Assembly (NCBI RefSeq): GCF_029962835.1
Contig: NC_080578.1
Coordinates: forward strand, 104,635,759-104,699,758
Origin: Magnolia sinica
Taxonomy: Eukaryota > Streptophyta > Magnoliopsida > Magnoliales > Magnoliaceae
Length of the DNA stretch: 64,000 nt
Direction: 5' to 3'
The notes beneath the pieces were generated by a model that had not been told where the DNA came from, did no database searches, and worked only from the letters and a program-made list of their open reading frames with translations. Each line of letters opens with the position of its first letter. Position 1 is the first letter of the stretch. The translations under genes and the position numbers were made by a program. Of this stretch, positions 11,790-39,398 are shown one piece after another.

Positions 11790-14184
11790 CTTGTGCATGA
11801 GCATGTCCTGGAACTGGGCCTCATCTTGGGTGATTCCAGACTCCTGGAGGGCCTTTGATACGAGCTTTCGCAGCTTTCTAATCTTCATGGCTCCATCTGG
11901 ACTCTGCCTTGCAAACACCGGCACAAGAATTTCATATCAAACATGCACATTTCATTCTCAAAAAAAAAAAAAAAACACATGACAGAAGATGAAATTTGGC
12001 ACATGCAGGACCACGTGCCAACTTGCACCTTATGTGTAAGATCCAAACTGATCCTTAGGAAGGGCCCACCGTGTAGCCGTGACCCAAGAATCAGGGCATC
12101 AACTGTCAGGTGGGTGATGTACAAAAACAATGGACAGTGAAAATTAATTGCCAATACTCCACATCAAGTGTAGATGCGTGGTCCACCCAGTCGATATTTG
12201 ATGTGGAGATGGTCCACCTGATGAGTGGTGAGCAGCCTGATTTTTGGGCCACAGCATTTACCGAGTACAACCCATCTGTAAAGCAGCTTGGATCTAACAC
12301 GTGGCACATGTTGGCATGTGCACCAACATATGAATGTGAGCAAGAAATGTTTGTAGAATTAGCAAAAGAAAACACTGGAAATGGAATATGTAGAACTTGG
12401 GATACTCTTGAAATGCCAAGAATTAGATTTCTCTAAGAATAGAAAAAACTATAAGCCACTAACACAAGATCCGAATTTAAATAACGACAATTTGGAGATC
12501 TCAAGACTAAGGTATGCCAAAACAGTAATGTAATGGTAACAGTGGCAATAGTTACACATTACGGAGCCGAAACTGCTGTTACAGAAAAAATAGCCCGTAA
12601 AGTCCCGCTGCAAGGCCAAAACAGATTTTCTTTGAAAAAAAAGTAGTAACAGCAGTGGCCATTATGGCCACCATTACCGTTATGGAACACCTTGCTCAAG
12701 ACTGCAATAATCTTTAGTATCTGCAAACCTACAGAAACAAATTCCAATTTTCCGTAGAATCAATTGGTTTGCATTACAAAAATCTCCTAGCAGATGCACT
12801 TGGATTTCCAAAAGCATTTTACATGCATCCGATAACCTAAATGGTGGTTTCATTATTTTAAAAGATGGCATGGGACTGATGAAACACTTGAACTCAGGAG
12901 CATCTCAGGCATCCTCAAATGAAACAAAATGTTTAATGCCAAAGCAACATAATGAGGGTTGAAGAGGCAATCCTCGAGAGACATCCCAGACATGGTATAT
13001 GCAGCATATCGGATCCAGGCCACAGGGTTACCTTTGACATGCCCTAGAACAAAAATCGAGACAGTCCAATCATCAGATGGCCCACAAATAAATGTTGAAT
13101 ACGGTGCATTGGTAATATCTTTTCTAACCATTGATTATCTTCATATGCATGACTGGACTGATTTTTGGACTGGGGCATGTTGACATTGATCACCAGCTGA
13201 TGAATGGTTGGATCTCACGCAAGTGTGCCACGTTGGCTGCACTGTGGATAGCCTATTCAATCTCCATTGCAGAAATCAGCCTATCACTTATCTCTAAAAA
13301 AAAAAAAATATACAAGAAAGAACGAAAGAAAGAAATCAGCCTATCACTTCCCCTATAGTACTATACATACATTGAATAAGGAACAATAAGTAGCTGTTTG
13401 ACTGGAATATGCATACCGATTTTAATATTGAAGTAATTAACTTCTTCCACTTTATTTTCTGATGGGTAGCTTCCTTGGGAGAGCCAACAATGCCTGTCTG
13501 ATCTTCATTCTGCAACATTGAATTAGTGTGTTTGTTTTTCTTACGTGGTTCTGCTTCTTCTCTTTCTGCTTGAATCACTTCACCATTGTTCAAATCACTT
13601 CTGCCCTCAGTATCTCCATTACCCCCATGTCCAGATGTATCGAATTTTCTCTTTTTCATCAACAGACTTTCTTTTTCTGCTTCCAGGCTAGATACAGCAG
13701 TGGCTTTTGGAGGGTCGCTTCCTTTTTTTTCATCTATGGTCTCGATTCCTTGTTCTTCGGTTGAGTATTCCCTCGAATGGACATTAACGGCATCCTTCTC
13801 ATTTGCAGTGGATTCTTCTGTTTGGCTGGATTTTTGCTGGGAAGCATGGAAGGCTCGGGCTTTTGCTCTGTGTTTCTTTCCTTCAGCATGGAGCAGCAAG
13901 GTTTGCTTACTCGTAGTGTTGGTATTACAGAGGCTGTGTAGAAACAAGTCCACCAAGAGGCTTCAATTCCCAAAGAAATCAAAGTACAACATTTTTTTAT
14001 CATGTGATCACATCAATCGAAAAAAGAAAAAGAAAAACTAAACAGGAAATTCCAGATTATTGGTTGGCCTTCAACTGATTCACTTTGGGCGTTATGTTTC
14101 TTGTTAATGCACGCAGATTTATTGAACAGGATGAAAATGACAAATGATGCAACAGACAGCAAGGACCTGCTGAAAACACCTCAC

Positions 14185-17200: not shown

Positions 17201-19242
17201 CTGAACAACTGATTTGGTTGCTCAATGTAGGTCTCTTGGAAGGCTGGTTATTCTCTTACTCATTTGATTAGGCACAAGTGAGGGTGCTTCCAGCTAACTT
17301 GACCTAAGATTCTGTCCCCAATGACACTAACCAAGCCTTACCAGCAGCCTATAGAACGTTGCATCAGAAACAGATGGGTTTGTCACTCAAATTAGAGATC
17401 CCTTACATATTGCATTTTCTTTTAATGTTTAAGTATATCTTTTCTTCAAGACATGTTCGTGAAAATATGCTGGGAAAGGTCAGAAAGTTCATCTCATGTG
17501 TAGTTGTGTATGTATTTAGTGTTTCCAATGAAAGCATCTTCACTTCTGTTGGGATCAGATTGAAAGCAAGAACATTTCAAAAGCTACCATTTTATTCTCC
17601 ATCTTTTTTATAATGTTTGATACGGATTCACTTAATCACCTGTCTGAATACGTTTCACATTTGTTTCCCACTCATTAGATGATCTGGTGGAGACAGTGTA
17701 GCGTGTGTGAGTGATCTAGGGTTTGATTCCTGATAGTGTCACCTTTTAAAAAAAAAAAAAAAAAAAATACATTTCACATTTCCGAAAGCATCTTCTATTG
17801 GGAAAGATTGATCGCAAGAACATTTCAAAGTCACCATTTTAATACCCAAATTTTAAATAGCAACCATGTTATTCTCCACCTTTTTTATGCATATTCACTG
17901 TTAATTTTTGCAGACCGTAAAACTTCTGCCAATCTACCATTTAAAAGCCAACCCAAAACAGCTAGGTGGAAGGCTTAAGATTTTGATGATTCTGTTTAAC
18001 TTTTACACTGTAGAAATAGTAAACGCTCAAATCAATGGTTGAGCTACCACAGATGCTACACAAAATCTTTAGGGCAATATCTTTTGTCCCTAACCCTTAT
18101 AGACAACTGGTGGCTCATGAACAACTGGTGTACTTGCTTAAATAAACAAAAAATGAAAATGAACATAGTAACAGAACTCACAAGTGGTCAAATTATAACT
18201 CACCTACAGAACCAGGGGGGATGTGAAGATAACCCAACATTTATATCAATATCTAAATTTTTCTTAGACTCGTTTTTGGGCTTAGCTGGTGTAGCATTTG
18301 AAGTCTTCCCTTGACCTTTGGGACCATATTTCTCCTGAAAAGAACATTTCATCAAGTTAAAGATATTGTTAAAGTCCCTTGATATACATTGATACACCAT
18401 CCTCTAACAGTTCGAGCTTTTAGAGTAATTGGTTGTTTGACATGGTATTAGAGAGGAAGGTCTTGCGTTTGAATCTCAGAGGCAGCAAACATGTCTCCCT
18501 AATATATTCTCCCACAAGAGTGTTAAAGTCCCTTGATATACATTGATACACCATCCTCTAACGGCTCAAGCTTTTAGAGTAACTGGTTGTTTAATAGATA
18601 TGAATATGATACTGGTCCTTGCAGTAAACATTTGGAAGAAGATTTAGCGGTGAAAGAAGTTCCGTTATTGCCTATACATGCATTCATTTTTGCAAGCAAT
18701 ATTAACTAATAAATCAAATTCAACGAAAGAAAGAATCCAATTCGATGATGAAATAATCATAAGCTTTGAGAAGTTGTTTACTAGTGAAAACACAAATATA
18801 CAGAAAGGGTGCAGTATGATTTGTATTAGTCTGAATAACAAACCGCTTCCGAGATGCACTGTGTGTGGCCTTGAACACTTTGTTGGTTGAATGTTTCTCC
18901 GCAGTCAATGCACGATAGCTACAAGAGGGAAAAGAATTGTATCAGTTGACTCTGTAAAACAAAACACCATGAGAAACGAGCACTATAAATAAATCTCAAA
19001 CTAAGCACCTAGAAATAAGATTTTAACGGAGATGCTAACATGGCTAGGAGATGATGGAAGAGGAGGAAAGAGAGAAATGGAGAGTTAAAAGGAGAAATAA
19101 GATAATTCTATTAGAGAGAAATGAATGCAGAAGCACAACTGAATTGATTTGCAATTCAACCAAAACTTGGTTATTTTCCACTTCATTAGACTAGTTATTG
19201 CAATGCGATTCGATATGGCATCCAAACGAAGCAGCCTGATGT

Positions 19243-19288
<46 letters not shown>

Positions 19289-19450
19289 ATGTAGGGAGAG
19301 AGAGAGAGAGAGAGAGAGAGACTGATGTAGGGAGAGAGAGAGAGAGAGAGAATGGCATGAGACCTTGTAAGCAGAGCAAATCCTGAAATGGCCTTGCAGC
19401 TTTGGCTTCTTCAAGTTCTCTCCACAGTCCTCGCACTGAAACCACACCAT
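11790..19450 (-). CDS. LYAR: LYAR-type C2HC zinc-finger nucleolar protein (cell growth-regulating)
   Basis: Minus-strand exons 19364-19450, 18844-18918, 18204-18334, 13417-13933 and 11790-11903 all have GT-AG borders and matching phases. They encode 308 residues before the unresolved end. Two LYAR-type C2HC fingers are visible: C6-C9-H21-C25 ([18 protein letters not shown]) and C32-C35-H47-C50. A U1-like C2H2 finger (C97-C100-H113-H119) spans the exon 3/4 junction. Then comes a charged, low-complexity, nuclear-targeting region (KKRKFD, RKKNKH) and the conserved C-terminal block [24 protein letters not shown] proteins act in the nucleolus in ribosome biogenesis and nucleic-acid binding. The start at 19450 gives the family's usual MVWFQCEDC; an in-frame ATG at 19498 exists. 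The last exon is uncertain: a 42-nt candidate with a good acceptor lies at 11483-11524. Exons 1-2 are duplicated upstream. Confidence 0.9.
11998..12321. mobile_element. MITE-like inverted-repeat element in LYAR-side intron
   Basis: The ends mirror each other: GGCACATGC..CACGTGCC..AAGATCCAA on the left and TTGGATCTAACACGTGGCAC..GGCATGTGC on the right. The interior has the CCTGATTTTTGGGCC landmark of the dispersed family. It lies in the intron between the last two firm LYAR exons. No coding capacity. Confidence 0.55.
12509..12694. mobile_element. MITE-like element, relative of 8022-8304
   Basis: Starts AAGGTATGCCAAAACAG and ends ATGGAACACCTTG, with GTAATGGTAACAGTGG and CCATTACCGTTATGG near the two ends. 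It is the same family as the 8022 element and lies in the same LYAR intron. Confidence 0.55.
14187..14275. repeat. (TA)n followed by (TG)n compound microsatellite
   Basis: About 68 bp of alternating TA, then about 20 bp of TG, in the LYAR intron between exons 3 and 4. Open frames across it are artefacts. It is likely length-polymorphic. Confidence 0.95.
14309..14671 (-). mobile_element. TRIM-type LTR element fossil, tandem-like
   Basis: On the minus strand, a partial LTR (14592-14671) is followed by a short internal piece (14550-14591), then a fuller LTR (14322-14549), and then a primer-site-like ATTGGTATCAAA at 14309-14320. A primer site beyond the second LTR implies an LTR-internal-LTR-internal arrangement, as unequal recombination can produce. 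Same family as 9274 and 42091. Non-coding. Confidence 0.6.
14760..14990 (+). repeat. LINE 3'-UTR-like fragment with A tail
   Basis: T-rich, G-containing text (TTTTTTTTCTTTTTACTGGC..TTCTTTTGGGGGTTCG) leads into TTTAATAAAATGCAACTTAAC and ends in a short A run at about 14977-14985. This is how many plant L1 3' ends look. No coding part is attached. Confidence 0.45.
15086..15175 (-). repeat. RTE-type LINE 3' tail
   Basis: On the minus strand it reads GGATTCATGTATCTGACCCC, AATTAATTTGACAAGGCTTA, then a (GAT)n-like tail. This resembles the widespread plant RTE 3' end (..GACCCCAATTAGTTGGGATAAGGCTT followed by a short trinucleotide repeat). Only the tail is present. Confidence 0.65.
15180..16640. other. 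LYAR intron DNA without recognised elements
   Basis: Short direct repeats 'attaatggtttagattagcttggg' occur at about 15635-15690. Open frames have no domain. Nothing else recognised. Confidence 0.4.
16651..16775 (+). repeat. tRNA-derived SINE
   Basis: Contains an A-box-like TAGATGAGCTGG and a B-box GGGTTCAATCC about 40 bp apart, then an A-rich tail (AAAAAAAAAAACAAAAAAC). A second copy lies at 17668. The tRNA part is not a functional gene: no cloverleaf closes. Confidence 0.65.
17668..17767 (+). repeat. tRNA-derived SINE, second copy
   Basis: Shares CATTAGATGATCTGGTGGAGA and GATCTAGGGTTTGATTCC with the 16651 copy and ends in a pure A run. Both copies lie in the same LYAR intron and the same orientation. 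Confidence 0.65.
18367..18596 (+). mobile_element. Complete miniature LTR element (TRIM), 230 bp
   Basis: Two 76-bp LTRs (18367-18442 and 18521-18596) start TGTTAAAGTCCC. They flank a 78-bp internal segment that opens with the primer-site-like TGGTATTAGAGA, one of the common initiator-Met variants. The element is bounded by a perfect 5-bp target duplication, GATAT (18362-18366 and 18597-18601). It has no coding capacity and looks structurally whole. It sits in LYAR intron 2, antisense to the gene, with its edge 33 bp from the exon 3 boundary. Confidence 0.85.
19243..19351. repeat. (GA)n tracts in LYAR intron 1
   Basis: Three GA tracts are separated by repeats of CTGATGTAGGG. The duplicate at 22612-22644 has only two, shorter tracts, so this is the most changeable part of the duplicated block. 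Confidence 0.9.
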
Positions 19451-19552
19451 CTTCGCCTCTTTCTTTCCTTTAACAAAGAGAGATGTGCTGCAGCTCAACT
19501 CAGGCGTTCGCCTTGTTAGGGCTTCCCTTTTGAATGGATCATCGTTAAAGGG

Positions 19553-20480
19553 GTGGCAAACCGCGGGTTCGGGCGCCGGCTCGGGTTCGGGCTCGGGCTA
19601 GTTTCGTCCGACCCAACGGCAATTCCCACGCACGTGTTCTATCATGCAAATACGCACGTGTTCTCTCAAACAAATTGCCGTTTGGATACGGCTGGTTTGG
19701 ATACGCCTTATAAGCAGTGTTTTTTTTTTTTTTTAATAGCATAGCGGTAATTATTTAAAAAGTTTATGGACAAATTTATTTTAAAATTAGCCAAAAATAT
19801 CGACCCAGTTGAGCTTGTTTGGGAACTTGTAATTTGAATAAGATGGGAAATAAAATTAGAGGTTAATTAATTAGGAGTAAATGTTTTTATATGAGTTATG
19901 TTTGAATGGTGGTAAATGAAATGCATTTGAAATCCAAAAAATGAGTTTGAATAGAAGCAAGTAGGAGGAAATGAAATATATAGGAATTTTTTAACATATT
20001 TGGTAGGAATATATTCAACATCCCAAATCAATTTTAATATCAGTGTACATATACAATAATTAATAGGATGATTGTAATAAGTCTAGGTAAGATACATATG
20101 CGAAATTTCAAGCCTCGAGTAAGCTATAAATATAAGGATCACGATGAAGCAACTCACCAACTTTTTTTTCATTTATATGGTTATCCTTTCAATGGTTTAC
20201 ATCATTTTTTTTTATGTGATTTTGGTGATGTACCCGATCATTGAATTATATCGAAGTATTACTAGCACCACACATGTGTAGTGGACATGTGCGTAATAGC
20301 ACATTTGTTTACATGTGCAACCCTCCAAGGAGCTCACGGATGCATTTCACCCCATTTAATTTCAAATTCCGTCCATTAGAGAGGATTTCATTTGCATGCA
20401 CATTTATTCACATTTCATTCCATTTACATATATTTACTTCCATTAATACACGTATCAATTACCATTTACCTTCATTTACT
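19553..20480. other. LYAR upstream region and AT-rich repeat
   Basis: Upstream of the LYAR start there is a GC-rich GGGTTCGGGCGCCGGCTCGGG stretch (19561-19600), then AT-rich DNA with 'gagcttgtttgggaacttgt' and 'catttactcccatctaaatg' edges that look like a MITE. No TATA box could be placed with confidence. Confidence 0.35.
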
Positions 20481-20867
20481 CCCATCTAAATGACACTAAG
20501 CCAAGTAAGCTCTTAAAAAATAAGTGGATCTCTACCACTTAATTTTCAAAAACCATTTGACTAGTTACTTAATATATAATAGTTTTTTGACTATTTACTT
20601 AAAATTTGTGTATAGTTAGAGTTTTACCAAATAATTTATTTTAAACATAGAGCTTATTTTATTAAAATGAGCAAATAAGCTCTTTATTAATGAAGATGCC
20701 TAACCACTCTTTACACTGGTTACTTATGCCTTAAGTAACTTATTAAAAGTTTATACTTAACCAGTAGATAAGTATGTTTAGAAAACAATGTAATTGCTTG
20801 TCAAAAAGTAGACACATATGTTTAATTTCCAACATTACATAAGTACTTATTTCTCAAGTTTGTTTCA

Positions 20868-21445
20868 TCCACCCTTAATATCTATCATCCATCATGTGCC
20901 CCAGCCTTTGAAGTGAACTGTTCATTATGTTGGGCCCACCTTAGCCATGTATTCAATTTGACCCAATTCATCATGTGGGGCCTACCTTCAATATATACCA
21001 TCTACCTTGCGGCGCCTACCTTTGATGTGGGCTATCCATCATGTGGGACACCTTGGATGTGGGTTATCCATCATGCGGGCCAACCTTTAATGAGGATCAT
21101 CCATCATGTAGGACCCAAGTTTGAAGTGGGGCGTGCCTTGGATGTGGGTCATCCATCTTCAAAGGGCAACCATTGATATTAATGTCCTCACAAGGGGCCC
21201 ACCTTAATATGGGTCATCTTTTACCATCTATGTTATTGTCCATCATATGGGCCCCAACTTTAATATCCACCACCCATCATATAAAACCCACCTTTGATGT
21301 GGACCATCTATCATGTAGATCCACCTTCGATGTGAGCCATCCATCATGTGGGGCCCACCTTAGATGTGGGTCATTCATCATCAACACTTTTGATGTGTAC
21401 CATCCATTGTGTGGGGCCCACCATGACATGAGTCATCCATCATGT
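20868..21445. repeat. Minisatellite, about 35-bp unit
   Basis: Imperfect tandem units built on GATGTGGGYCATCCATCATGTGGGGCCCACCTTT. About 15 units are visible, each diverged. The same array recurs at 24118-24470 and 24650-25030. Confidence 0.85.
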
Positions 21446-21467
21446 GGGGCCCACATTGGACAAGAGT

Positions 21468-21670
21468 AAAGGTGGGCATCGGACTGAGTCGGATCGGATT
21501 CGGCCCAACCTGACCAGATTCGAAATTTGTAGAACCTGATCCGAACTCGTTCCGATCAGGGACTGAGTCTGGATCATCTAATTCGAACAGATTCAAACGT
21601 CTTTTGACCTGAATCGATCCGGGTCCGACCCGGTCAAGAAAACCGAGTCGGATCAGATTGGGGAAAGCTT
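21468..21670. mobile_element. CGG/GTCGG-rich insertion with GGTGGGCAT edge
   Basis: Starts AGGTGGGCATCGGACTGAGTC and continues as degenerate 'gatcgga/tcggg' text. A relative at about 24472-24648 ends in the complement (ATGCCCACCTC). It is non-coding; the proline/aspartate-rich frames across it are compositional. Confidence 0.45.
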
Positions 21671-21809
21671 GAATCATTCATTTTTTCCAACGACATGAAA
21701 ATCATTATATTAATGTTTTGTATGGTACGATCTATTTGATTATTGAATTCACTTAAAATTTAGTATCAACTCCTTAAATGATCTGAAAAAACTGATGGAC
21801 GGTGTAGAT

Positions 21810-22610
21810 ACATGGTATTAGAGAGGAAGGTCTTGCAATTGAATCTCGGAAGCAGCAAACATGTCTCCCTAATATATTCTCCCACAGGAGTGTTAAAGTC
21901 CCTTGATATACATTGATACACCATCCTCTAACGGCTCAAGCTTTTAGAGTAACTGGTTGTTTAATAGATATGATACTGGTCCTCGCAGTAAACATTTGGA
22001 AGAAGATTTAGTGGTGAAAGAAGTTCCGTTATTGCCTAAACATGCATTCATTTTTGCAAGCAATATTAGCTAATAAATCAAATTCAACGAAAGAAAGAAT
22101 CCAATTCGATGATGAAATAATCATAAGCTTTGAGAAGTTGTTTACTAGTGAAAACACAAATATACAGAAAGGGTGCAGTATGATTTGTATTAGTCTGAAT
22201 AACAAACCGCTTCCGAGATGCACTGTGTGTGGCCTTGAACACTTTGTTGGTTGAATGTTTCTCCGCAGTCAATGCACGATAGCTACAAGATGGAAAAGAA
22301 TTCTATCAGTTGACTCTGTAAAACAAAACACCATGAGAAACGAACACCATAAATAAATCTCAAACTAAGCACCTAGAAATAAGATTTTAACAGAGATGCT
22401 AACATGGCCAGGAGATGATGAAAGAGGAGGAAAGAGAGAAATGGAGAGTTAAAAGGAGAAATAAGATAATTCTATTAGAAAGAAATGAATGCAGAAGCAC
22501 AACTGAATTGATTTGCAATTCAACCAAAACTTGGTTATGTTCCACTTCATTAGACTAGTTATTGCAATGCGATTCGATATGGCATCCAAACGAAGCAGCC
22601 TGATGTAGGG

Positions 22611-22644
<34 letters not shown>

Positions 22645-24472
22645 ATGGCATGAGACCTTGTAAGCAGAGCAAATCCTGAAATGGCCTTGCAGCTTTGGCT
22701 TCTTCAAGTTCTCTCCACAGTCCTCGCACTGAAACCACACCATCTTCACCTCTTTCTTTCCTTTGACAAAGAAAGGTGTGCTGCAGCTCAACTCAGGCGT
22801 TCGCCTTGTTAGGGTTTCCCTTTTGAATGGATCGTTAAAGGGGTGGCAACCCGCGTGCTCGGTCGCCGGCTCGGGTTCGGGTTCGGGCTCGGGCTGGACC
22901 TCGCACGTGTTCTATCATGAAAATACGCAAGTGTTCTGTCAAACAAATTGCTGTTTGGATACGGCTGGTTTGGATACGCCTTAAAAGTTGTTTTTTTTTT
23001 TTTTTTTAAAAGCATAGCGGTAATTATTTAAAAAGTTTACGGACAAATTTATTTAAAAATTAGTCAAAAATATCGACCCAGTTGAGCTTGTTTGGGAACT
23101 TGTAATTTGAATCAGATGGGAAATAAATTTTGAGGTAAATTAATTAGGAGTAAATGTTTTTATATGAGTTATGTTTGAATGGTGGTAAATGAAATGCATT
23201 TGAAATCCAAAAATTGAGTTTGAATAGAAGCAAGTAGGAGGAATTGAAATATATAAGAATTTTTTAACATATTTGTAGGAATATATTCAACATCCCCAAT
23301 CAATTTTAATATCAATGTACATGTACAATAATTAATAAGATGATTGTAATAAGTCTAGGTAAGCTACATATGGCAAATTTCAAGCCCCGAGTAAACTACA
23401 AATATAAGGATCACAAACAAGCAACTTACCAACTTTTTTACTGTTCACTTATATGGTTATCCTTTCAATGGTTTGGATCATTTTTTTTAATGTGATTTTG
23501 GTGATGTACTTGATCATTGAATTATTTCTCACTATTACTAGCACCACACATGTGTAGTGGACATGTGCGTAATAGCACATTTGTTTACACGTGTGTCCCT
23601 CCAAGGAGCTCAAGAATGCAATTAATCCCATTTAATTTCAAATTTCGTCTCTGGAAACGATTTCATTTCATTTACATATATTTACTTCCATCAAAACACA
23701 TATCAATTACCATTTATCTTCATTTACTCCCATCTAAATGATACTAAACCAAGTAAGCCCTTAAAAAATAAGTGGATCTCCATCACTTAATTTTTAAGAA
23801 CCATTTGACTAGTTACTTAAAATATAATATCTTTTGACTATTTACTTAAAATCTGTGTATAGTTAGAGTTTTACCAAATAATTTATTTTATACATAGAGC
23901 TTATTTTATTAAAATAAGCAAATAAGCTCTTTATTAATGAAGATGCCTAACTGCTTTACATTGGCTACTTATGCCTTAAGTAACTTATTAAAAGTTTATA
24001 TTTAACTAGTAGATAAGTATATTTGCTAAACAATGTAATTACTTGTCAAAAAGTAGAAACATATGTTTAATTTCTAACATTACATAAGTACTTATTTCTC
24101 AAGTTTATTTCATCCACCCTTAATATCTATCATCCATCATGTGCCCCAACCTTTGATGTGGACCATTCATTATGTTGGGCCCACCTTAGCGATGTCTTCA
24201 ATTTGACCTAGTCATCGTGTGGGGCCTACCTTCAACATATACCATCTACCTTGCAAGGCCCACCTTTGATGTGGGCTATCCATCATATGGGACACCTTGG
24301 ATGTGAGTTATCCATCATGTGGACCAACCTTTAACGAGGATCATCAATCATGTAGGACCCAAGTTCGAAGAGGGGCTTGCCTTGGATGTGGGTCATCCAT
24401 CTTCATAGGGCGACCACTGATATTAATGTCCTCATGAAAGGGCCCACCTTGATATGGGTCATCTTTTACCAT
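21810..24472. repeat. Tandem segmental duplication, copy 2
   Basis: Repeats 18440-21232 in the same orientation. It starts at the primer-site side of the TRIM (ACATGGTATTAGAGAGG), includes one TRIM LTR, both LYAR exons and the upstream AT-rich region, and ends within the minisatellite. Confidence 0.9.
22208..22743 (-). CDS. Duplicated LYAR exons 1 and 2 (upstream copy)
   Basis: The exon 1 copy at 22657-22743 and exon 2 copy at 22208-22282 match the LYAR exons base for base over all 162 coding positions, while the flanking and intron sequence differs. The start codon, both zinc-finger halves and the splice donor/acceptor dinucleotides are kept. There is no third exon before the downstream copy. 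A transcript starting here could splice past the proximal exon 1 into either LYAR exon 2 (also phase 0, giving an extra finger) or exon 3 (giving the same protein). Without transcripts it may equally be an unused partial duplicate. Confidence 0.6.
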
Positions 24473-24649
24473 TTCGGTTCGAGTTTTCGGATCGGTTCTG
24501 TCCGAATACACCTCTATCCAAACCTGACCCGAAAATGATCGGATCTGAATTGGCAAACTCGATCAAGGCCGATCTAGGCCGTCGGTTCTGTTCGGAACAG
24601 TACCGAGTCGGGTCAGATCCACCGGATCGGGTCCAATATGCCCACCTCT

Positions 24650-25030
24650 AGACAAGAGCCATTCATTGTTGACACCTTTGATGTGGACCGTTCATTATGT
24701 GGGTCATCCATCATGATATTTGATGCCGAGTGTCCATTGTGTGGGCCATCCATCATGAGGGGCCCACTTGGTTATGAGCCATTCATAATTAGGGGCCAAC
24801 GTTTGATGCGAAAGGTCATCCATCATGTAAAGCCTACTTTGGATGTAGACCATTCATCATCAGGAGCTTACCTTTGACAGGGATAATCCATTACGTGGGC
24901 TCACATGGGTGTGGGGTTATCCATAATGTGAGGCCCACTTTTGATGTGGACCATCCATAGTGTGGGTCCCACCTTTGATGTGTGGATCGTCCATGCGCCA
25001 TATAGGCCCTACCTTTGATGTGGACCCCGG
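24650..25030. repeat. Minisatellite continuation, about 35-bp unit
   Basis: Same GATGTGGACCATCCATCATGTG-type units as at 20868-21445, more diverged. It is separated from the earlier part of the array by the GTCGG-rich insertion. Confidence 0.75.
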
Positions 25031-26776: not shown

Positions 26777-26802
26777 TTAATTCAACAATTCGATTTCAAG
26801 AA

Positions 26803-27742
26803 TGTTGGAATATTTGGTTGAATTAAATAGACTATTAAAAATCGAGAACCAAAAAAGAAAATAAATTTTGAGAAAGAAGAACTTATTGAATTGAGTCGGG
26901 GAGGTGAGTCACTCGGCTTGAAATCGAATTGCTCCCCTTGGACGGCGTCCCAAGTGCAACAGTTTCCAGAGCAATCGACCTCCAGGATACAACGACTATG
27001 ACCGGTCCCAGTGGTCTATGCACGGGCTCGAACCACTTGCGGTTTAATCAAAGTGCTGAGTTGACTCGCGATGAACTCAGTAGAAAATGCTTAAACCGAA
27101 TATCAGAGGGCGTTTTATAAGAGAAGAATTTTTCGTATTTTAAAATTGGAATCGGTAGTCTTTATATAGACTCAAGTGGTGCATAAGCACCCTTTACAAA
27201 AGGTTAGGTCCGTTGGGTTTAAACCCACAGGTGTGGCCAACCGAAAGGGATCTCTCTGGTTTAAAACGAAAAGGCGCAAGTGCGAGTACACTCCCGCACA
27301 TACTGATCCTGCGAGTACCCATACACACACCCACGCGAGTATACACACACCGCACCCGCACCGCACCCGCGCACAGCCCAGCCCAGCCCGTCGCGCGTCG
27401 CGTCGCGCACGGACACGGACTCGGACTCGGACTCGGACTCGGACTCGGCTTGGCTCGGGCACGGCACGGCTCGGCTCGGCTCGGCCGACTGCGCGTGTGG
27501 TCAATGGCATAGATTAGAGCTATTGGCATAGCCCCCCCACAGGAACAAATTCACATGCCCCCTAAAAGGGGCTCAAGCCCTAGGCAAAAAAATTATCTTA
27601 TATACAAGATAGTTTACTATGTTAAATTCGATGTGGGATAAAATCCACAACTCAAAAGTACTACAACTTTTTAAAATTGGAGGAAAATTATCGAAAATTT
27701 AAAAATTCAAATTTTAATGCTATTTTAAAACAAAATACAACA
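26803..27742 (-). repeat. Left LTR of fossil B (940 bp)
   Basis: Bounded by TGTTGG..CAACA on the plus strand. It carries a TATA box (minus strand TCTATATAAAG, about 27163-27173) and a GC-rich hexanucleotide tract (CTCGGA)n at about 27417-27449. Directly left of it (26777-26802) lies primer-site-like DNA of the same family. Confidence 0.85.
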
Positions 27743-28536
27743 ATCCCTCACATGTTTTAAAATAAACCCTTTCGGATTAAAGCGTAATAGTTGTGCAATG
27801 GTGCCGGTGTCACCATAGACTTGAACCAACATTAGAGTAAGCAAGACAGGTCTACAGGAATCAGGTGACACCATAGTCTTGAACCTGAATCCTTTTAATG
27901 TAGATTGCAAGTACATGCTACTCATACAACTCTTCCTCTACAAGTGATTCTGCGGTTTGGTGCGTTTCGACCATATACAAATACCTGAATTTCATGAGTG
28001 TTGTAGAGAATTCGCCTAAATTCTTATATGAAGTGGCCTCCACCTCCGCACCCATATAGGTAAATTTCATCAAGTGTATGCAGCAACTGTATACACCACC
28101 AAATATATGGCTATGGATTCATTAAGAGTTCTAACAACTCATCCTTCTGCGTTGCTGCTCGCACTGTACACCATAGAAGGGGCTCATACAACTCAGTGCA
28201 ATCGTCTACCTCGTGTCTTGTTGTTTACCCATTGAACCTATCTCATGGGATCTCCACTTGTATAGGTTGGGTTGCCGACACTGGCAGCTCATATATTAGG
28301 CTCAGCCCCATTCCCTTCGATGTATCATTGACTAACCTTTTAGATAGTCCTTTGGTCAGAGGATCTGCTAAATTCTTTTCTGACCTCATATAGTCAACAG
28401 ATATGACTCTATCACGCAACATATGTTTCACTATGTTGTGTCTGAGTCTAATATGCCTGCTCTTTCCATTATATATTTTACTCTTTGCTTTCGCTATAGC
28501 TGCTTGACAGTCACAATGAATAGATACGGCCGATAC

Positions 28537-29399
28537 ATAGCATTAAAATTTGAATTTTCAAATTTTCGGTAATTTTCCTCCAATTTTGAAAAGTTGTAGT
28601 ATTTTTGAATTGTGGGTTTTGTCCCACATCAGACTTGACAAAGTAAATCCTCTTGTATATTAGATAGGCTTTTTGCCTTGGACTTAAGCCCCATTTAGGG
28701 GGCATGTGAATTTGGTCTTGTGGGGGCTATACCAATAGCTATAATTTATGCCATTGACCACACACGTGCACACGTCGAGTCGAGTCCGAGTCGAGTCCGA
28801 GTCTGTGTCCATGTGCGCGACGCGACGCGACGCGACGCGACGCGACGCGAGGCGACGGGACGGGACGGGAAGGGAGTGCGGGTGCGGTGTGTGTATACTC
28901 GCGTGGGTGTGTATATGGGTACTCGCGGGACTTTATGTGGGGTACTCGCACTTGCGCCTTTCGTTTTAAACCAGAGAGAGGTTTTGGTTCGTTGTGTTTA
29001 AACCCAACGGACTTAAACCTTTGTAAAGGGTGCTTATGCACCACTTGAGTCTATATAAAGACTACCGATTCCAATTTTAAAATACGAAAAAAATTCTTCT
29101 CTTATAAAACGCTCTCGGATATTCGGTTTTAAGCATTTTCCTACTTAGTTCATCAACACTTTCGGATTAAATTGCAAGTGGTTCGAGGTTCACAACTGCT
29201 GGGACCGGTCATAGTCGTTGTATCTGGAGGTCGATTGCTCTGGAAACTTGCCTTGGGACGCTGTGCAAGGGGAGCAAATTCGATTTCAAGCCGAGTGCCT
29301 CCCTCGACTCATTCAATAAGTTCTTCTTTCTCAAAATTATTTTCCTTTTTTGGTTCTCGATTTTTTATAGTCTATTTAATTCAACTAAATATTCCAACA
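28537..29399 (+). repeat. 5' LTR of fossil A
   Basis: The TATA box TCTATATAAAG lies at about 29050-29060. GC-rich tracts lie at about 28776-28870, including repeated GCGAC units. It ends TATTCCAACA. Confidence 0.8.
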
Positions 29400-32300
29400 A
29401 TCTTGAAATCGAAAATTGTTGAATTACATAGACTATGGCTACAGTAACAGTAAATGCTTCTACTGAGTTAGCCAAAATCGAACCGTTCGCTGGACAATCA
29501 TTTAAACGGTGGAAACAGAAACTGATGTTCGCTCTGACCACCCTGAAAGTTTCATACATTTTATCTGAATCATTTACTATAGATCCAGCAAATCAAACTG
29601 AAGTAACAGATGAAAATAATTGTAAAAATTATATTCTAAACTCTTTATCCAACGAACTATATGACGTGTATGTTTCTTACGTGTCTGCTAAAAACATATG
29701 GACTGCTTTAGAAAAGAAATACATATTAGAAGATGCAAGCGCTAAGAAACATGCAATTGCTAATTTCCTTCATTATGAAATGACAGACGATATACCTGTC
29801 ACAAATCAGATTCATGATTTTCAAAGTCTAGTTCATGAACTATCGACAGAAGGAATTAAGTTGGATGAAGTGTTTCTGTCAGGAGCACTAATAGAAAAGT
29901 TACCGCCCTCCTGGAAAGAATATAAGAATAGAATGAAACATAAAAAGAACGGTATTTCTTTGGAAACCACTATCGTACACATACGAATAGAGGAGGCCAA
30001 TAGAATCAGGGACCAAAAAGAAAATAAAAATGAGATAGATTCAAAGGCGAATCTTGTGGAATCAAGTCGGGCAAATAATAAGAAAAAGGGCAACTGTCAT
30101 AACTGTGGCAAACCTGGACATTATGCAAATGAATGCAGGCTCAAAAAGAAGAATACAAACAATCAATTCAAGAAAAAGGGAAACTGCTACAACTGTGGAA
30201 AGCCTGGGCATCATGTCAAAACCTGCAGGCTTAAGAAAAACAAAGATAAGCCGCAGGCTAATCTTACAGAAACAGGCAATGAGTCTGACATGATAGTAGC
30301 TGTGGTGTCAGAAGTCTTCCTTGTAAACAACTTGGAGTGGGTACTAGACACTGGTGCAACTAGGCACGTATGCAAGGATCGTAGCATGTTTACCTCCTAT
30401 CAAGTATCAGGAGATGATGAACAGGTGTTCATGGGTAATGCTAGAACGTCTCCAGTTGTAGGGAAAGGGAAAGTACTTCTGAAACTCACTTCTGGAAAGA
30501 CTCTGATGTTGAATGATGTCCTACATGTGCCCGACATTAGAAGAAACTTGGTCTCTGGTTCACTCCTCAATAAGGCTGGTATTAAGTTAGTATTTGATTC
30601 AGATAAGCTTGTAATGACTAAGAATGGAACCTTTGTTGGTAAGGGGTACTGTAGCGATGGTTTATTCATTATAAATGTATCCAATGATAATAATAAGAAG
30701 ACATTCAGTTCTGTTTATATCGTTGAACCTTTTTATCTATGGCATAGTAGATTAGGTCATGTGAATATAGCATCTTTAAAGAAAATGAAAAGATTAGGTT
30801 TATTACCTAATATATCTAATGAAGAATTTAACAAATGTGAAACATGTGTCGAATCAAAATTCATTAGAAAACCCTTTAAACAAATAGAAAGATCATCTGT
30901 TCTAGTATTAATATGAAGTGACTTAGGTGATTTTAGAAATCACATATATAAAGGCAGTAAAAGGTATTATGTAACGTTTGTAAATGATTACTCTAGATAC
31001 AATAAAGTATACCTACTAAGAAACAAAGATGAAGCTTCAGATGTTTTTTCTAAATACAAAATTAAAGTTAAAAATCAGTTAAATATAAAAATTAAAAGAC
31101 TTAGAACAGATAGAGGAGGTGAATATGAATCTTCTCAATTTAGAGAATTATGTGAAAAGAATGGAATAGTTCACGAAACTACAGCTCCTTATACACCAAA
31201 ACAGAATGGAATAACAGAACGTAAGAATAGAACTTTAAAAGAAATGATGAATGCTATGTTAAATAGTTCAGGCTTACCCTCAAATATGTGGGGAGAAGCA
31301 ATTCTATCTGCCTGTTATATTCTAAATAGAATTCCTTCTAAATCTTTTGAACAAACACCATATGAACTTTGGAAGAATCATGTTCCTAGTTACAAATATA
31401 TTAAAGTGTGGGGGTGTCTTGCTAAAGTAGGATTACCTGAAACTAAGAAAAGAAAGTTAGGTCCTAAAACAACCGACTGTGTATTTATAGGTTACGCACA
31501 AAATAGTGCGGCCTATAGATTTTTAGTTTTAAAAACTAAGGATAATATTCTAGATCCTAATACAATTATAGAAGCTCGGGATGCAGAGTTCTTTGAGAAT
31601 GTATTCCCTATGAAATTTAAATCTATAGGAATAGAGGAAGTCAAAGAATCAGATATTGCGTCTACTAGTAAAAATGCATACGAGAAAGTAGTAGAAGAGA
31701 TACAACCAAGAAAAAGTACTAGGGTTAGAAGAGAAACTAACCTAGGAGATGGTTTTTCACTTTCTTAGTAGAAGATGATCCTACAACTTATATAGAAGTA
31801 ATTAACTCTCCAGATGCAACTTTTTGGAAGGAAGCAATAAATGATGAGTTAGAATCTATTATATCTAATAACACATGGAAAATTGTAGACCTACCACCTG
31901 GAAATAAACCAATAGGTTGTAAATGGGTGTTTAGAAAGAAACTAAAATCAAATGGGACTATTGATAAGTTTAAGGCTAGGTTGGTAGCGAAAGGCTTTAA
32001 ACAAAAAGAAGGAATAGATTACTTTGATACTTACTCTCCTGTAACTAGAATTACAACTATCAGGGTCTTAATAGCGATAGCCTCCATATATAAACTGGTG
32101 GTACATCAGATGGACGTAAAGACAGCTTTCCTAAATGGAGACTTAGAAGAAGAAATATATATGGAACAACCGGAGGGTTATAAGATATCAGGAAAAGAAA
32201 ATAAAGTATGTAGACTAATTAAATCATTATATGGTTTAAAACAGGCTCCTAAACAATGGCATGAAAAATTTGATGGTGTTTTAAAATCAAATGGTTATCA

Positions 32301-33861
32301 TATAAATGATGTAAATAGATGTGTATATAGTAAAATTTCTAAAATTGATTATGTTATTATATGCCTTTATGTTGATGACATACTTATTTTTGGAACAAAT
32401 ATTAAATTAGTCAATACAACTAAGAATTTCTTGTCATCTAAGTTTGACATGAAAGACTTAGGATATGCTAGTGTAATCTTAGGTATTGAAGTAACTAGGA
32501 AAAATGGTGTTATTATATTATTACAATCTCATTACATTGAGAAGATATTGATAAAGTTTAACCATTTTGACTGTTTACCTATCAGTACTCCTTATGATTA
32601 TAGTGTGATTCTCATGAAGAATACAGAAAATAGTGTCTCTATTGGAGTATTCCAGAATAATTGGTAGCCTCATGTATCTAACAAACTGCACTAAACCAGA
32701 CATAGCTTTTGCAGTAGGAAGGCTAAGTAGATATACACATATCCCTGAAAAAGAGCATTGGAATGCTTTGTCTAGGATTTTGAAATACCTAAAAGGCAAT
32801 ATAGCCTATGGTTTACATTATAATATTTTTCTGCTGTATTAGAAGGATACAGTGATGCTAACTGGATTAGTGATTTAGATGAGACAAAATTCACGAGTAG
32901 ATATGTTTTCACTTTGGGTGGAGGAGCAGTCTCTTGGAAGTCTACCAAACAGACATGTATCACTCGGTCTATTATGAAATCCGAGTTTATTACCTTAGAA
33001 AAGGCTGGATCAGAAGTCGAGTGACTTAAAAATCTTATAGCTGATATACCATTGTGGCCAAAGCCTGTATCGGCCGTGTCTATTCATTGTGATTGTCAAG
33101 TAGCTATAGTGAAAGCAAAGAGTAAAATATATAATGGAAAGAGCAGACATATTAGACTTAGACACAACATAGTGAAACACATGTTGCGTGATGGAGTCAT
33201 ATCTATTTAATGTGTGAGGTCAGAAAAGAATCTAGCAGATCCCTTGACTAAAGGACTATCTAAAAGATTAGTCAGTGATATATCGAAGGGAATGAGGCTG
33301 AGCCTAATATATGAGCTGCCAGTGTCGGCAACCCAACCTATACAAGTGGAGATCCCATGAGATAGGTTCAATAGGTAAACAACAAGACATGAGGTAGACG
33401 ATTGCATTGAGTTGTATGAGCCCCTTCTATGATGTACAGTACGAGCAGCAACGCAGAAGGATGAGTTGTTAGAACTCTTAATGAATCCATAGCCATATAT
33501 TTAGTGGTGTATACAGTTGTTGCATACATTTGATGGAATTCACCTATATGGGTGTGGAGGTGGAGGCCGCTTCCTATGAGAATCTAGGCGAATTCTCTAG
33601 AGCACTCATGAAATCCGGGTAATGGTATATGGCCGAAACGTACTGAACCGCAGAATCACTTGCAAAGGAAGAGTTGTGTGAGTAGCATGTACTTGCGATC
33701 TACATTAAAAGGATTCAGGTTCAAGACTATGGTGTCACCTGATTCCTGTAGACCTGTCTTGCTTACTCTAATGTCGGTTCAAGTCTATGGTGACACCGGT
33801 ACCATTGCACAACTATTACGCTTTAATCCGAAAGGGTTTTATTTTAAAACATGTGGGGGAT

Positions 33862-34829
33862 TGTTATATTTTGTTTTAAAATAGTATTAAAATTTGAATT
33901 TTCAAATTTTCGGTAATTTTCCTCCATTTTTGAAAAGTTGTAGTACTTTTGAGTTGGGGGTTTTGTCCCACATCGGATTTGACAAAGTTAACTATCTTGT
34001 ATATAAGATAGTATTTTTGCTTAGGGCTTGAGCCCCTTTCAGGGGGCATGTGAATTTGGTCCTGTGGGGGGGCTATGTCAATAGCTCTAATCTATGTCAT
34101 TGACCACACGCGGGCGCGCGCCGAGCCGAGCCGACCCGTGTCGTGCCGTGCCGAGCCGAGCCGAGCCGAGCCGAGTTCGAGTCTGAGTCCGTGTCCGCGT
34201 GCGCGACGCGACGGGACGGGACGGGACAGGCTGGGCTGGGCGTGGGCGCGGGTGCGGTGTGTGTATACTCGCGTGGGTGTGTGTATGGGTACTCGCAGGA
34301 CTGTATGTGCGGGAGTGTACTCGCATTTGCGCCTTTTCGTTTTAAACCAGAGAGATGCGTCCCTTCCGGTTGGTTGCCTCTGTTGGGTTTAAACCCAACG
34401 GACCTAACCTTTTGAAAAGGGTGCTTATGCACCACTTCGGAGTCTATATAAAGACAACCGATTCCAGTTTTAAACATACGAAAATTCTTCTCTTATAAAA
34501 CGCTCTCTGATATTCGGTTTTAAGTATTTTCTACTGAGTTCATCGCTGAGTCAACTCAGCACTTTCGGATTAAATTGCAAGTGGTTCGAGCCCGTGTACA
34601 GTGAGTGCACCGCTGGGACCGGGTCATAGTCGTTGTATCCTGGAGGTCGATTGCTCTGGAAACCTGTTGCACTTAGGATGTTGTTCAAAGGGAGCAAATT
34701 CGATTTCAAGCCGAGTGACTTAGTCACGCCTCGACTCAATTCAAGAAATCCTCTTTCTCAAAAATTTTATTTTCCTTTTTTGGTTCTCGATTTTTAATAG
34801 TCTATTTAATTCAACTAAATATTCCAACA
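33862..34829 (+). repeat. 3' LTR of fossil A (968 bp)
   Basis: Starts TGTTATATTTTG directly after a GTGGGGGAT purine tract and ends TATTCCAACA. It has the family TATA box (about 34444-34455) and a GCCGA-type tract at about 34120-34175. TAC flanks the element on both sides (28534-28536 and 34830-34832), a possible trace of target duplication. Confidence 0.85.
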
Positions 34830-37800
34830 TACTTGAAGGTCTAAACAAGGTAGACTAAGAGATTTCTAAGCCACTCATCTTCTGATCCAGCCTTTTTTAA
34901 GGCAATAAACTCGGATTCCATAGTAGACCGAGCGATACATGTCTGCTTGGTAGACTTCCAAGAGACTGCTCCTCCACCTAAAGTGAAGACATATCCACTC
35001 GTGGACTTTGTCTCATCTGAATCACTAATCCAGTTAGCATCACTGTATCCTTCTAATACAGCAGGAAAACCATTATAATGTAAACCATAGGCTATACTGC
35101 CTTTTAGGTATCTCAAAATCCTAGACAAAGCATTCCAATGCTCTTTTCCAGGGTTATGTGTATATCTACTTAGCCTACTTACTGCAAAAGCAATGTCTGG
35201 TCTAGTGCAGTTTGTTAGATACATAAGGCTACCAATTATTAGAATACTCCAATTGAGACACACTATTTTTTCGTATTCTTCATGAGAGTCACACTATAAT
35301 CATAAGGAGTCCTGACACAATCAAAATGGTTAAACTTTCTCAATATCTTCTCAATGTAATGAGATTGAGATAATATAATAACACCATTTTTTCTGGTTAC
35401 TTCAATACCCAAGAGTACACTAGCCTCTCCTAAGTCTTTCATGTCAAACTTAGATGACAAGAATTTCTTAGTTGTATTAACTAATTTAATATTAGTTCCA
35501 AAAATAAGCATGTCATCAACATAAAGACATATAATAACATATTCATTTCCAGAACTTTTACTATATACACATTTATCTACATCATTTATATGATAACCAT
35601 TTGATTTTAAAACACCATTAAAATTTTCATGCCATTGTTTAGGAGTCTGTTTTAAACCATATAATGATTTAATTAGTTTACATAATTTATTTTTTCTTTT
35701 CCTGATATCTTATAACCCTCAGATTGTTCCATATATATTTTTTCTTCTAAGTCTCCATTTAGGAAAGTTGTCTTAACGTCCATCTGGTGTACCACCAGTT
35801 TATATATGGAGGCTATCGCTATTAAGACCCTGATAGTTGTAATTCTAGTTACAGGAGAGTATGTATCAAAGTAATCTATTCCTTCTTTTTGTTTAAAGCC
35901 TTTCGCTACCAACCTAGCCTTAAACTTATCAATAGTCCCATCTGGTTTTAGTTTCTTTCTAAACACCCATTTACAACCTATTGGTTTATTTCCAGGTGGT
36001 AGGTCTACAATTTTCCAAGTGTTATTAGATATAATAGATTCTAACTCATCATTTATTGCTTCCTTCCAAAAGGTTGCATCTGGAGAGTTAATTGCTTCTA
36101 TATAGGTTGTAGGATCATCTTCTACTAAGAAAGTGAAAAAATCATCTCCTAGGTTAGTTTCTCTTCTAACCCTAGTACTTTTTCTTGGTTGTATCTCTTC
36201 TACTACTTTCTCGTATGCATTTTTACTAGTAGATGCAATATCTGATTCATTGACTTTCTCTATTCCTATAGATTTAGATTTCATAGGGAATATGTTCTCA
36301 AAGAACTCTGCATCCCTAGCTTCTATAATTGTATTAGGATCTAGAATATTATCCTTAGTTTTTAAAACTAGAAACCTATAGGCCGCACTATTTTGTGCGT
36401 AACCTATAAATGCACAGTCAGTTGTTTTAGGACCTAACTTTCTTTTCTTAGTTTCAGGTAATCCTACTTTAGCAAGACACCCCCACACTTTAATATATTT
36501 GTAACTAGGAATATGATTCTTCCATAGTTCATATGGTGTTTGTTCAGAAGATTTAGAAGGAATCCTATTTAGAATATAACAAGCAGATAGAATTGCTTCT
36601 CCCCACATATTTGAGGGTAAGCCAGAACTATTTAACATAGCATTCATCATCTCTTTTAGAGTTCTATTCTTACGTTCTGCTATTCCATTCTGTTCTGGTG
36701 TATAAGGAGCTGTAGTTTCGTGAACTATTCCATTCTTTTTACATAATTCTCTAAATTGAGAAGATTCATATTCACCTCATCTATCTATTCTAAGTCTTTT
36801 AATTTTTATATTTAACTAATTTTCAACTTCAATTTTGTATTTAGAAAAAGCATCTAAAGCGTCATCTTTGTTCCTTAACAGATAAACTCTAGTGAACCTA
36901 GAGTAGTCATCTACAAAAGTTATGTAATATCTTTTTCCACCTCTAGACATGTGATTTCTAAAATCACATAAGTCATTATGTATCAACTCTAATAGAACAG
37001 ATGATCTTTCTATTCGTTTAAAGGGTTTTCTAATGAATTTTGATTCTACACATGTTTCACATTTATCGAATCCTTCATTAGATATATTAGGTAATAAACC
37101 TAATCTTTTCATTTTCTTTAAAGATACTACATTCACATGACCTAATCTACTATGCCATAGATAAAAAGGTTTAACGATATAAACAGAACTGAATGTCTTC
37201 TTATTATTATCATTGGATACATTTATAATGAATAAACCATCGCTACAGTACCCCTTACCAACAAAGGTTCCATTCTTAGTCATTACAAGCTTATCTGAAT
37301 CAAATACTAACTTAAAACCAGCCTTACTAAGGAGTGAACCAGAGACCACGTTTCTTCTAATGTCAGGCACATGTAGGACATCATTCAACATTAGAGTCTT
37401 TCCAAAAGTAAGTTTCATAAGTACTTTTCCTTTCCCTACAACTGGAGACGTGCTACCATTACCCATGAACACCCATTCATCATCTTCTGATACTTGGTAG
37501 GAGGTACACATGTTACGATCCTTGCACACGTGCCTAGTTGTACCAGTGTCTAGCATCCACTTCAAGTTGTTTAAAAGGAAGACTTCGACACCACAGCTAC
37601 TATCATGTTAGACTCATTGCCTGTTTTCTGTAAGATTAGTCTGCGGCTTATCTTTATTTTTCTTAAGCCTGCAGGTTTTGACATGATGCTCAGGTTTTCC
37701 GCAATTGTAATAGTTTCCCTTTTTCTTGAATTGATTGTTTGTATTCTTCTTTTTGAGCTGCATTCATTTGCATAATGTCCAGGTTTGCCTGATTGGATTT

Positions 37801-38486
37801 GATTGCCCTTTTTCTTATTATTTGCGACTTGATTCCACAAGATTCGCCTTTGAATCTATCTCATTTTATTTTCTTTTTGGTCACTGATTCTATTGCCTCC
37901 TCGATTCGTATGTGTACGATAGTGGTTTCAAAGAAACACCGTTCTTTTTATGTTTCATTCTATTCTTATATTCTTTCCGGGAAGGTGGTAACTTTTCTAT
38001 TAGCGCTCCTAATATAAACACTTCATCCAACTTAATTCCTTACGATAGTTCATGAACTAAACTTTGAAAATCATGAATTTGATTTGTGACAGTTATATCG
38101 TCTGTCATTTCATAATGAAGGAAATTAGCAATTGCATGTTTCTTAGCGCTGCATCTACTAATCTGTATTTCTTTTCCCAAGCAGTCCATATATCTTTAGC
38201 AGACACGTAAGAAGCATGCACGTCATATAGTTCGTTGGATAAAGAATTTAGAATATAATTTTTACAATTATTTTCATCTGTTACTTCAGTTTGATTTGCT
38301 GGATCTATAGTAAATGATTCAGATAAAATGTATGAAACTTTCAGGGTGGTCAGAGCGAACATCAGTTTCTGTTTCCACCGTTTAAATGATTGTCCAGCGA
38401 ACGGTTCGATTTTGGCTAACTCAGTAGAAGCATTTACTGTTACTGTAGCCATAGTCTATGTAATTCAACAATTTCGATTTCAAGAT

Positions 38487-39398
38487 TGTTGGAATATTTG
38501 GTTGAATTAAATAGACTATTAAAAATCGAGAACCAAAAAAGGAAAATAAATTTTGAGAAAGAAGAACTTATTGAATTGAGTCGAGGCGTGACTGAGTCAC
38601 TCGGCTTGAAATCGAATTTGCTCCCCTTGGACAGCGTCCCAAGTGCAACAGGTTTCCAGAGCAATCGACCTCCAGGATACAACGACTATGACCCGGTCCC
38701 AGCGGTGCACTCACTGTACACGGGCTCGAACCACTTGCAGTTTAATCCGAAAGTGCTGAGTTGACTCAGCGATGAACTCAGTAGAAAATGCTTAAAACCG
38801 AATATCAGAGAGCGTTTTCTAAGAGAAGAATTTTTTTCGTATTTTAAAACTAGAATCGGTAGTCTTTATATAGACTCCGAAGTGGTGCATAAGCACCCTT
38901 TACAAAAGGTTAGGTCCGTTGGGTTTAAACTCAACAGGTGCGACCAACCGGAAGGGACGCATCTCTGGTTTAAAACGAAAAGGCGCAAGTGCGAGTACAC
39001 TCCCGCACATACTGATCCTGCGAGTACCCATACACATACCCACGCAGTATACACACACCGCACTTTGCACACGCGCCAGCCCGTCCGCGGCCCGTCCGTC
39101 CGTCCGTCGCGCAGCGCGCACGGACTCGGACTCGGACTCGGACTCGGCTCGGCCCGCGTGGTCAATGGCATATATTAGAGTTATTGGCATAGCCCCACTC
39201 CCAAAGTCACATGCCCCCTGAAAGGGGCTCAAGCCCTAGGCAAAAAGACTATCTTATAAACAAGATAGTTTACTTTTTCAAATCCGATGTGGGACAAAAC
39301 CCACAACACAAAAGTACTACAACTTTTCAAAATTGGAAGGAAATTATTGAAAATTTGAAAATTCAAATTTTAATGCTATTTTAAAACAAAATACAACA
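38487..39398 (-). repeat. Right (5') LTR of fossil B (912 bp)
   Basis: Bounded by TGTTGG..CAACA on the plus strand, with the family TATA box on the minus strand and (CTCGGA)n / (CGTC)n tracts at about 39090-39150. Confidence 0.85.

Follow-up and report, generated by a model that had tools for sequence, protein, structure and literature searches.

How did the front end of one plant gene come to lie twice in its own neighborhood, and does the second copy serve the gene? Both questions are raised by a locus of Magnolia sinica, which we examined in a window of 64,000 nucleotides (contig NC_080578.1, all positions being counted from the first base of the window). The gene is read on the minus strand. 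The coding part of its first exon occupies 19364..19450 (87 bases), and exon 2, which carries the Pfam domain zf-LYAR, lies at 18844..18918 (75 bases). Exon 3 (18204..18334) was placed from its splice sites and reading frame, and exon 4 (13417..13933, the low end being approximate, as it was read from the GT after ...AAATCG) from an open frame and an acceptor; both are matched in a protein search of the genome. The exon borders 1/2 and 2/3 are both in phase 0. The name LYAR, given to the gene in the original prediction, is upheld by the protein of the first four exons, in which Pfam finds zf-LYAR (E = 6.2e-16) as well as zf-met, the latter lending support to exon 4. The best PDB match is 1wjv, which is named LYAR (E = 8.2e-12), and the two chains matched, 1wjv and 6zmi, bear the names LYAR or cell growth-regulating nucleolar protein.

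As far as a protein search of the genome can show, LYAR appears to be a single-copy gene in which the front end alone is doubled. When residues 1-139 were compared with the plant's own genome (1.84 Gb, 127 contigs), 24 candidates were scored and six matches were obtained, all at one locus: exons 1, 2, 3 and 4, and the copies of the first two exons, 1' and 2'. A nucleotide query covering 18800-19400 gave 39 listed matches, three of which are the two copies in the window, while the other 36 are repeats of at most 75 bases. One stretch of LYAR intron 1, 19158-19227, is itself a dispersed repeat inside the gene and occurs in 34 of the 39 genome matches listed.

The two blocks that the original prediction described are real. 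Positions 18440..21227, the source (copy 1), align with 21810..24472, the captured fragment (copy 2), in a single BLAST alignment of 2793 columns at 89.8% identity. Both are oriented on the minus strand and contain LYAR upstream DNA, exon 1, intron 1, exon 2 and part of intron 2; copy 1 is continuous with exons 3 and 4. The coding part of exon 1' (22657..22743, minus strand, 87 bases) is identical to that of exon 1, and exon 2' (22208..22282, minus strand, 75 bases), which encodes one zf-LYAR finger and is in phase 0 on both sides, is identical to exon 2, so the predicted absence of coding differences holds (0/162). The splice sites had likewise been called the same in both copies; the GT, the AG and the donor contexts are indeed equal, but the acceptor tract of exon 2' differs at one base. 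Beside the LYAR start, both copies also carry GGGGTGGCAA...CGGGTTCGGGCTCGGG (19546-19610 and 22836-22890), which looks like what we take to be one end of a further miniature transposon rich in GC.

The arrangement had been called a tandem duplication. Copy 2 is instead bracketed by the ends of a DNA transposon and by a target-site duplication (TSD), and it replaces the interior of that transposon. Simple tandem copies would abut, or be spaced by the length of their unit, whereas the 582 bp between these two consist of a repeat array and a transposon end. The element, which we describe as a hAT-like non-autonomous transposon with captured LYAR DNA, spans 21467..24650 (3184 bp). Its 13-bp TIRs, TAAAGGTGGGCAT and TAGAGGTGGGCAT, match in inverted orientation at 12 of 13 positions, and it is flanked by an exact 8-bp TSD, GACAAGAG, at 21459..21466 on the left and 24651..24658 on the right; on the strand given, this octamer occurs in the window at these two places only.

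The whole window was scanned for signatures of this kind. Exact 8-mer pairs 100-8000 bases apart were examined, with at most one mismatch allowed in the 13 terminal bases. The unfiltered scan gave 13 matches, 12 of which, that is all except 21467-24650, have palindromic 8-mers; the reversed control gave 26 matches, and there were none in 40 Markov shuffles. Once palindromic and simple 8-mers had been excluded, 12,190 pairs yielded 21467-24650 as the sole match and the reversed control yielded none. A relaxed scan (up to three mismatches) added six matches in the window, all with two or three mismatches.

The element interrupts a CATCATGTGGGGCCCACC-type tandem array (20870..21458) with units of roughly 34 bp. 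When the flanks were joined at one GACAAGAG, 61 of 80 ungapped positions matched the adjacent array unit, compared with 36-53 for 32 other joining offsets and 44 for the right-side array. The interval 21467-24650 is a clean insertion into the array, whose register is restored when the insertion is removed. The same array, with its unit of roughly 34 bp, is also found at 24659-25030, upstream of LYAR.

The names hAT, TRIM and PBS, as we apply them to elements in this window, are in part our assumption. The TSD lengths given in the parts of PMC8903248 and PMC4717578 drawn on here back the names hAT and TRIM. An 8-bp TSD without a fixed motif is what is found in the hAT superfamily, and the hAT label rests mainly on it, because the ends of the element start with TA, versus CA for the hAT ends in the rice table of PMC4423477. 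No stop-to-stop frame of at least 120 amino acids lies inside 21467-24650, and the element thus qualifies as non-autonomous. Long inverted arms cannot be claimed for it, since its two ends can be aligned with each other in inverted (score 71.5) as well as in direct orientation (69.0), and both scores exceed the highest among 200 shuffles (63). Elsewhere in the window, 26778-39398 holds a large inverted arrangement of elements with gag-pol-like frames on both strands, in which 28537-33035 matches 39379-34860 at 91% and 26795-28537 matches 34837-33066 at 91%; we presume these to be Copia-type elements, the gag-pol naming being likewise our assumption.

Both ends of the transposon find their counterparts in a family of high copy number within this genome; first-look candidates number 1743 for the left end, 1839 for the right end. 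The best 40 of each were scored and, the window aside, 28 of 39 left ends pair up with 28 of 39 right ends. These 28 paired copies were taken as the family set, which favors standard lengths because its members were chosen for paired ends, and outside which stand 11 left and 11 right unpaired ends that may include unusual interiors. The copies measure 2098-2220 bp and each covers 98-100% of one of them, L049, in which the longest frame is 121 amino acids. The TSD is perfect (8/8) in 21 copies and 7/8 in six; in the remaining copy it reaches 7/8 once shifted by one base. LYAR DNA was found by BLAST in none of the 28 copies, which marks it as host-gene cargo of the kind carried by Pack-TYPE and Pack-TIR elements.

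Comparison with 12 family copies shows where the transposon ends and the cargo begins. The left family end, 21467..21810 (344 bp), is 92.7-94.5% identical to all 12, and the homology stops at 21809-21810; the right family end, 24468..24650 (183 bp), is 88.1-95.6% identical to all 12, and the homology starts at 24468. Seven further places in the window match 21714-21810 at 63-67%. That this stretch might be a separate piece of filler was considered and ruled out, as the family copies show it to belong to the transposon's own left end. Relative to the same 12 copies, about 1.6 kb of family interior is missing at LYAR and the 2.66-kb LYAR fragment stands in its place. Family and source overlap at the left junction by 1 bp only (A) and at the right junction by 5 bp (ACCAT), overlaps that may represent microhomology.

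These boundaries bear on whether the second copy is an assembly artefact made of uncollapsed haplotypes, an alternative that the original prediction had kept in view. A divergence of about 2% in the exon-intron part is compatible with an allelic difference, but copy 2 has a TSD, inverted ends and family arms at its borders, and its flanks form one unbroken array once it is removed. We therefore consider an artefact very unlikely indeed.

The direction of copying can be read from a TRIM-like miniature LTR element in LYAR intron 2 (18367..18596), which is complete in the source but truncated in the copy; the gene was therefore the template. The element is 230 bp long, runs from TG to CA, has LTRs of 76 bp as read (94% identical over 72 bp) and is flanked by a 5-bp TSD, GATAT, at 18362-18366 and 18597-18601. 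We take 18367-18596 to consist of LTRs with a PBS-like TGGTATTAGAG on the strength of general features of such elements. Copy 2 starts at the border between LTR and PBS of this element. Its 230 bp are below the 292 bp quoted, in the section of PMC4717578 used here, for the smallest TRIM.

The other end of the source, 21227, is 231 bp from the insertion site (TSD start 21459), the bias toward nearby DNA that gap-filling should produce. We conclude that the structure is very probably a single-copy Pack-hAT, or Pack-TIR, beside its parent gene: a non-autonomous hAT-like insertion, gap-filled from LYAR, with probable later conversion of part of the cargo. A transposon of 2.1-2.2 kb would first have inserted in the repeat array, some 2 kb upstream of LYAR. 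A break within this transposon, or a replication fork stalled there, would afterwards have been mended by copying adjacent DNA, a repair that would have deleted about 1.6 kb of the interior and added 2.66 kb of LYAR DNA, oriented like the gene itself. Thereafter the upstream part would have diverged at a near-neutral rate, and the exon-intron part would have been homogenised with the gene, gene conversion being the most likely cause. Both gap-filling as the route and the order of events, with insertion before capture, are what we infer from this anatomy.

Two other routes to the same anatomy deserve consideration. An ordinary tandem duplication with a breakpoint in a pre-existing transposon could have come first, and a later deletion in the second copy could have removed the stretch of array and the left transposon end, along with all remaining DNA as far as the breakpoint. 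Such a history would yield two long direct repeats in tandem with a transposon end on each side, as observed, but it requires an extra deletion that erased every other duplicated base. The LYAR homology of the copy runs directly into the right end of the family, with no trace of 21228-21466 and no left end between them, and the final anatomy is that of an interior replaced between family ends. We regard this route as improbable. In the second route, two transposon ends lying close together would have undergone alternative transposition while the flank was re-replicated. This process, which generates composite insertions at maize Ac/fAc, would likewise place transposon ends and a TSD around a segmental copy, and the possible microhomology at the inner joins resembles that described in the portion of PMC4270019 consulted. 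However, composite insertions as described there carry DNA that is contiguous with the end of a donor transposon, whereas the LYAR source continues at 21228 into the array, and two inner junctions are present here instead of one. A donor transposon that has since departed without trace is conceivable; even so, we give this route little credence.

The divergence between source and copy bears on what followed the capture. The original prediction reported many substitutions in the intron and flank alike. This is true of the upstream DNA, where 139 of 1724 positions differ (8.1%), but not of the introns, where 18 of 772 differ (2.3%; Fisher p = 6e-9), so that two regimes had been lumped together. 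They are divided by a change point at 19455 (support 19425-19566), immediately upstream of the start codon, with 18/938 differences on one side and 139/1720 on the other; its likelihood ratio is 49, against a largest value of 17 in 300 permutations. A second change point, which adds 11 to the likelihood ratio, marks a hot stretch of 13/55 near 19560-19632. Upstream divergence is thus uneven, with 22/188 differences in 19546-19750, 11/289 in 19751-20040 and 101/1155 beyond.

The transposon ends provide a yardstick for these values. They carry 25 private differences in 520 positions (19/342 and 6/178), which predicts a source-copy divergence of up to 9.6% if capture came right after insertion. 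The upstream 8.1% is near this expectation, though below it (P = 0.014), and the introns, at 2.3%, are far below it. The suggestion that the duplication is young and its flanks drift fast is therefore not borne out: the upstream DNA does not exceed what the transposon ends predict, and the unusual feature is the likeness of the exon-intron part. Gene conversion, which the original prediction also listed, still stands and explains introns and exons together; from the pattern of differences, homogenisation of the exon-intron part with the gene by conversion seems the most likely cause. The low intron divergence could instead reflect less mutation in transcribed DNA. CpG decay found no support as the cause of the step, as differences in a CpG context are a minority on both sides of it (25/137 upstream of 19540, 6/23 below). 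Transitions make up 79 of 137 differences upstream of 19540, a smaller share than the 18 of 23 below.

Are the copied exons used? It is conceivable, though we think it unlikely, that both exon pairs are in use and kept identical by selection, with an alternative promoter giving rise to a LYAR protein with an extra zinc finger. The absence of coding differences, the intact splice sites and the phase-0 exons all fit such a reading. The order 1'-2'-2-3 would be a natural splice, because exon 1, as a first exon, needs no acceptor and, cryptic sites apart, would have none; phase-0 borders keep it in frame, as had been predicted, and Pfam counts two zf-LYAR stretches in it. Were the copied promoter active, splicing would probably pass over exon 1 and join exon 2' to exon 2, to give two zf-LYAR fingers.

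Against use of both pairs stands the observation that the introns are almost as alike as the exons. The 0/162 coding differences are modestly surprising beside 23/859 in local non-coding DNA (18440-19540; Fisher p = 0.038), but the probability of 0/162 is 0.11 if only the copy is free of constraint. Judged on the alignment, identity of the coding bases is weak evidence of use, and purifying selection on both exon pairs, considered as the main cause of that identity, is unsupported, the introns being alike too. Nor is constraint evident at the promoter. Within 300 bp upstream of the start codon, 27/280 positions differ, no lower than the 112/1444 further upstream (p = 0.28), and there is thus no sign that the copied promoter is being kept. 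The stronger version, in which the cargo would act as a second LYAR promoter, 1'-2'-2-3 would encode a duplicated finger and repeated conversion would keep the exons identical, also seems unlikely. If it is true, the gene gained a promoter and a domain through in situ gap-filling of a transposon. Since exon 2 is in phase 0 on both sides, such a capture could in a single step present a gene with another promoter as well as an additional zinc finger.

The structure at LYAR is real and instructive and, read as an in situ Pack-hAT next to the gene it was copied from, of a kind already known. The locus provides a clean plant case in which the interior of a DNA transposon was filled with the upstream DNA and first exons of the adjacent gene, and it shows that such a capture can pass for a tandem gene duplication. 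A search of the literature found no report of the LYAR case, which is no proof that none exists.

Among related systems, Pack-hAT elements share with the LYAR element captured coding DNA and the 8-nt TSD of hAT (PMC8903248, in the sections cited here). Those sections propose that Pack-TYPE elements acquire DNA by fusion of neighboring insertions followed by remobilisation; unlike what that model expects, the LYAR source lacks flanking ends of the family and the cargo is found once. packFinder, which removes singletons, would not retain it, as the listed matches of the 18800-19400 query away from the LYAR locus are repeats of at most 75 bases and the protein matches lie at that locus only, and the element is therefore classed as a single-copy Pack-TIR and not as a mobilised Pack-hAT family. 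The maize elements Ds2 and Ds-l4 likewise combine hAT ends with an interior that has given way to gene fragments in which an intron is retained, but the two donors illustrated for them in the part of PMC3260210 used here are on other chromosomes, whereas the LYAR template ends 231 bp away. The likeness to Ds drawn here is one of layout. Repair of transposon excisions in rice by SDSA leaves filler DNA of 1-123 bp in the cases covered by the cited portion of PMC4423477, far shorter than the 2.66 kb of LYAR cargo.

A further parallel is offered by animals. In a survey of 100 animal genomes, single-copy Pack-TIRs lie near their parent sequences, most of the templates within 15 kb being under 5 kb away, and have similar junctions, with microhomology; the authors infer a transposition-independent gap-filling (PMC8277862, as far as the excerpts relied on here extend). 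The excerpts also call gap-filling "worth exploring" for plant Pack-MULEs, so that the LYAR locus bears on a route inferred for animals and proposed for study in plants. The TIRs (12/13) and the superfamily-typical 8-bp TSD that define Pack-TYPE and Pack-TIR elements are present at LYAR and common to the 28 family copies. Like the single-copy Pack-TIRs of that survey, the LYAR element has TIRs, an interior that duplicates DNA from close by, overlaps at its breakpoints and a cargo found once; unlike the animal examples described there, it is a plant hAT-like element that carries upstream DNA and two exons in the sense orientation and is located upstream of its parent gene.
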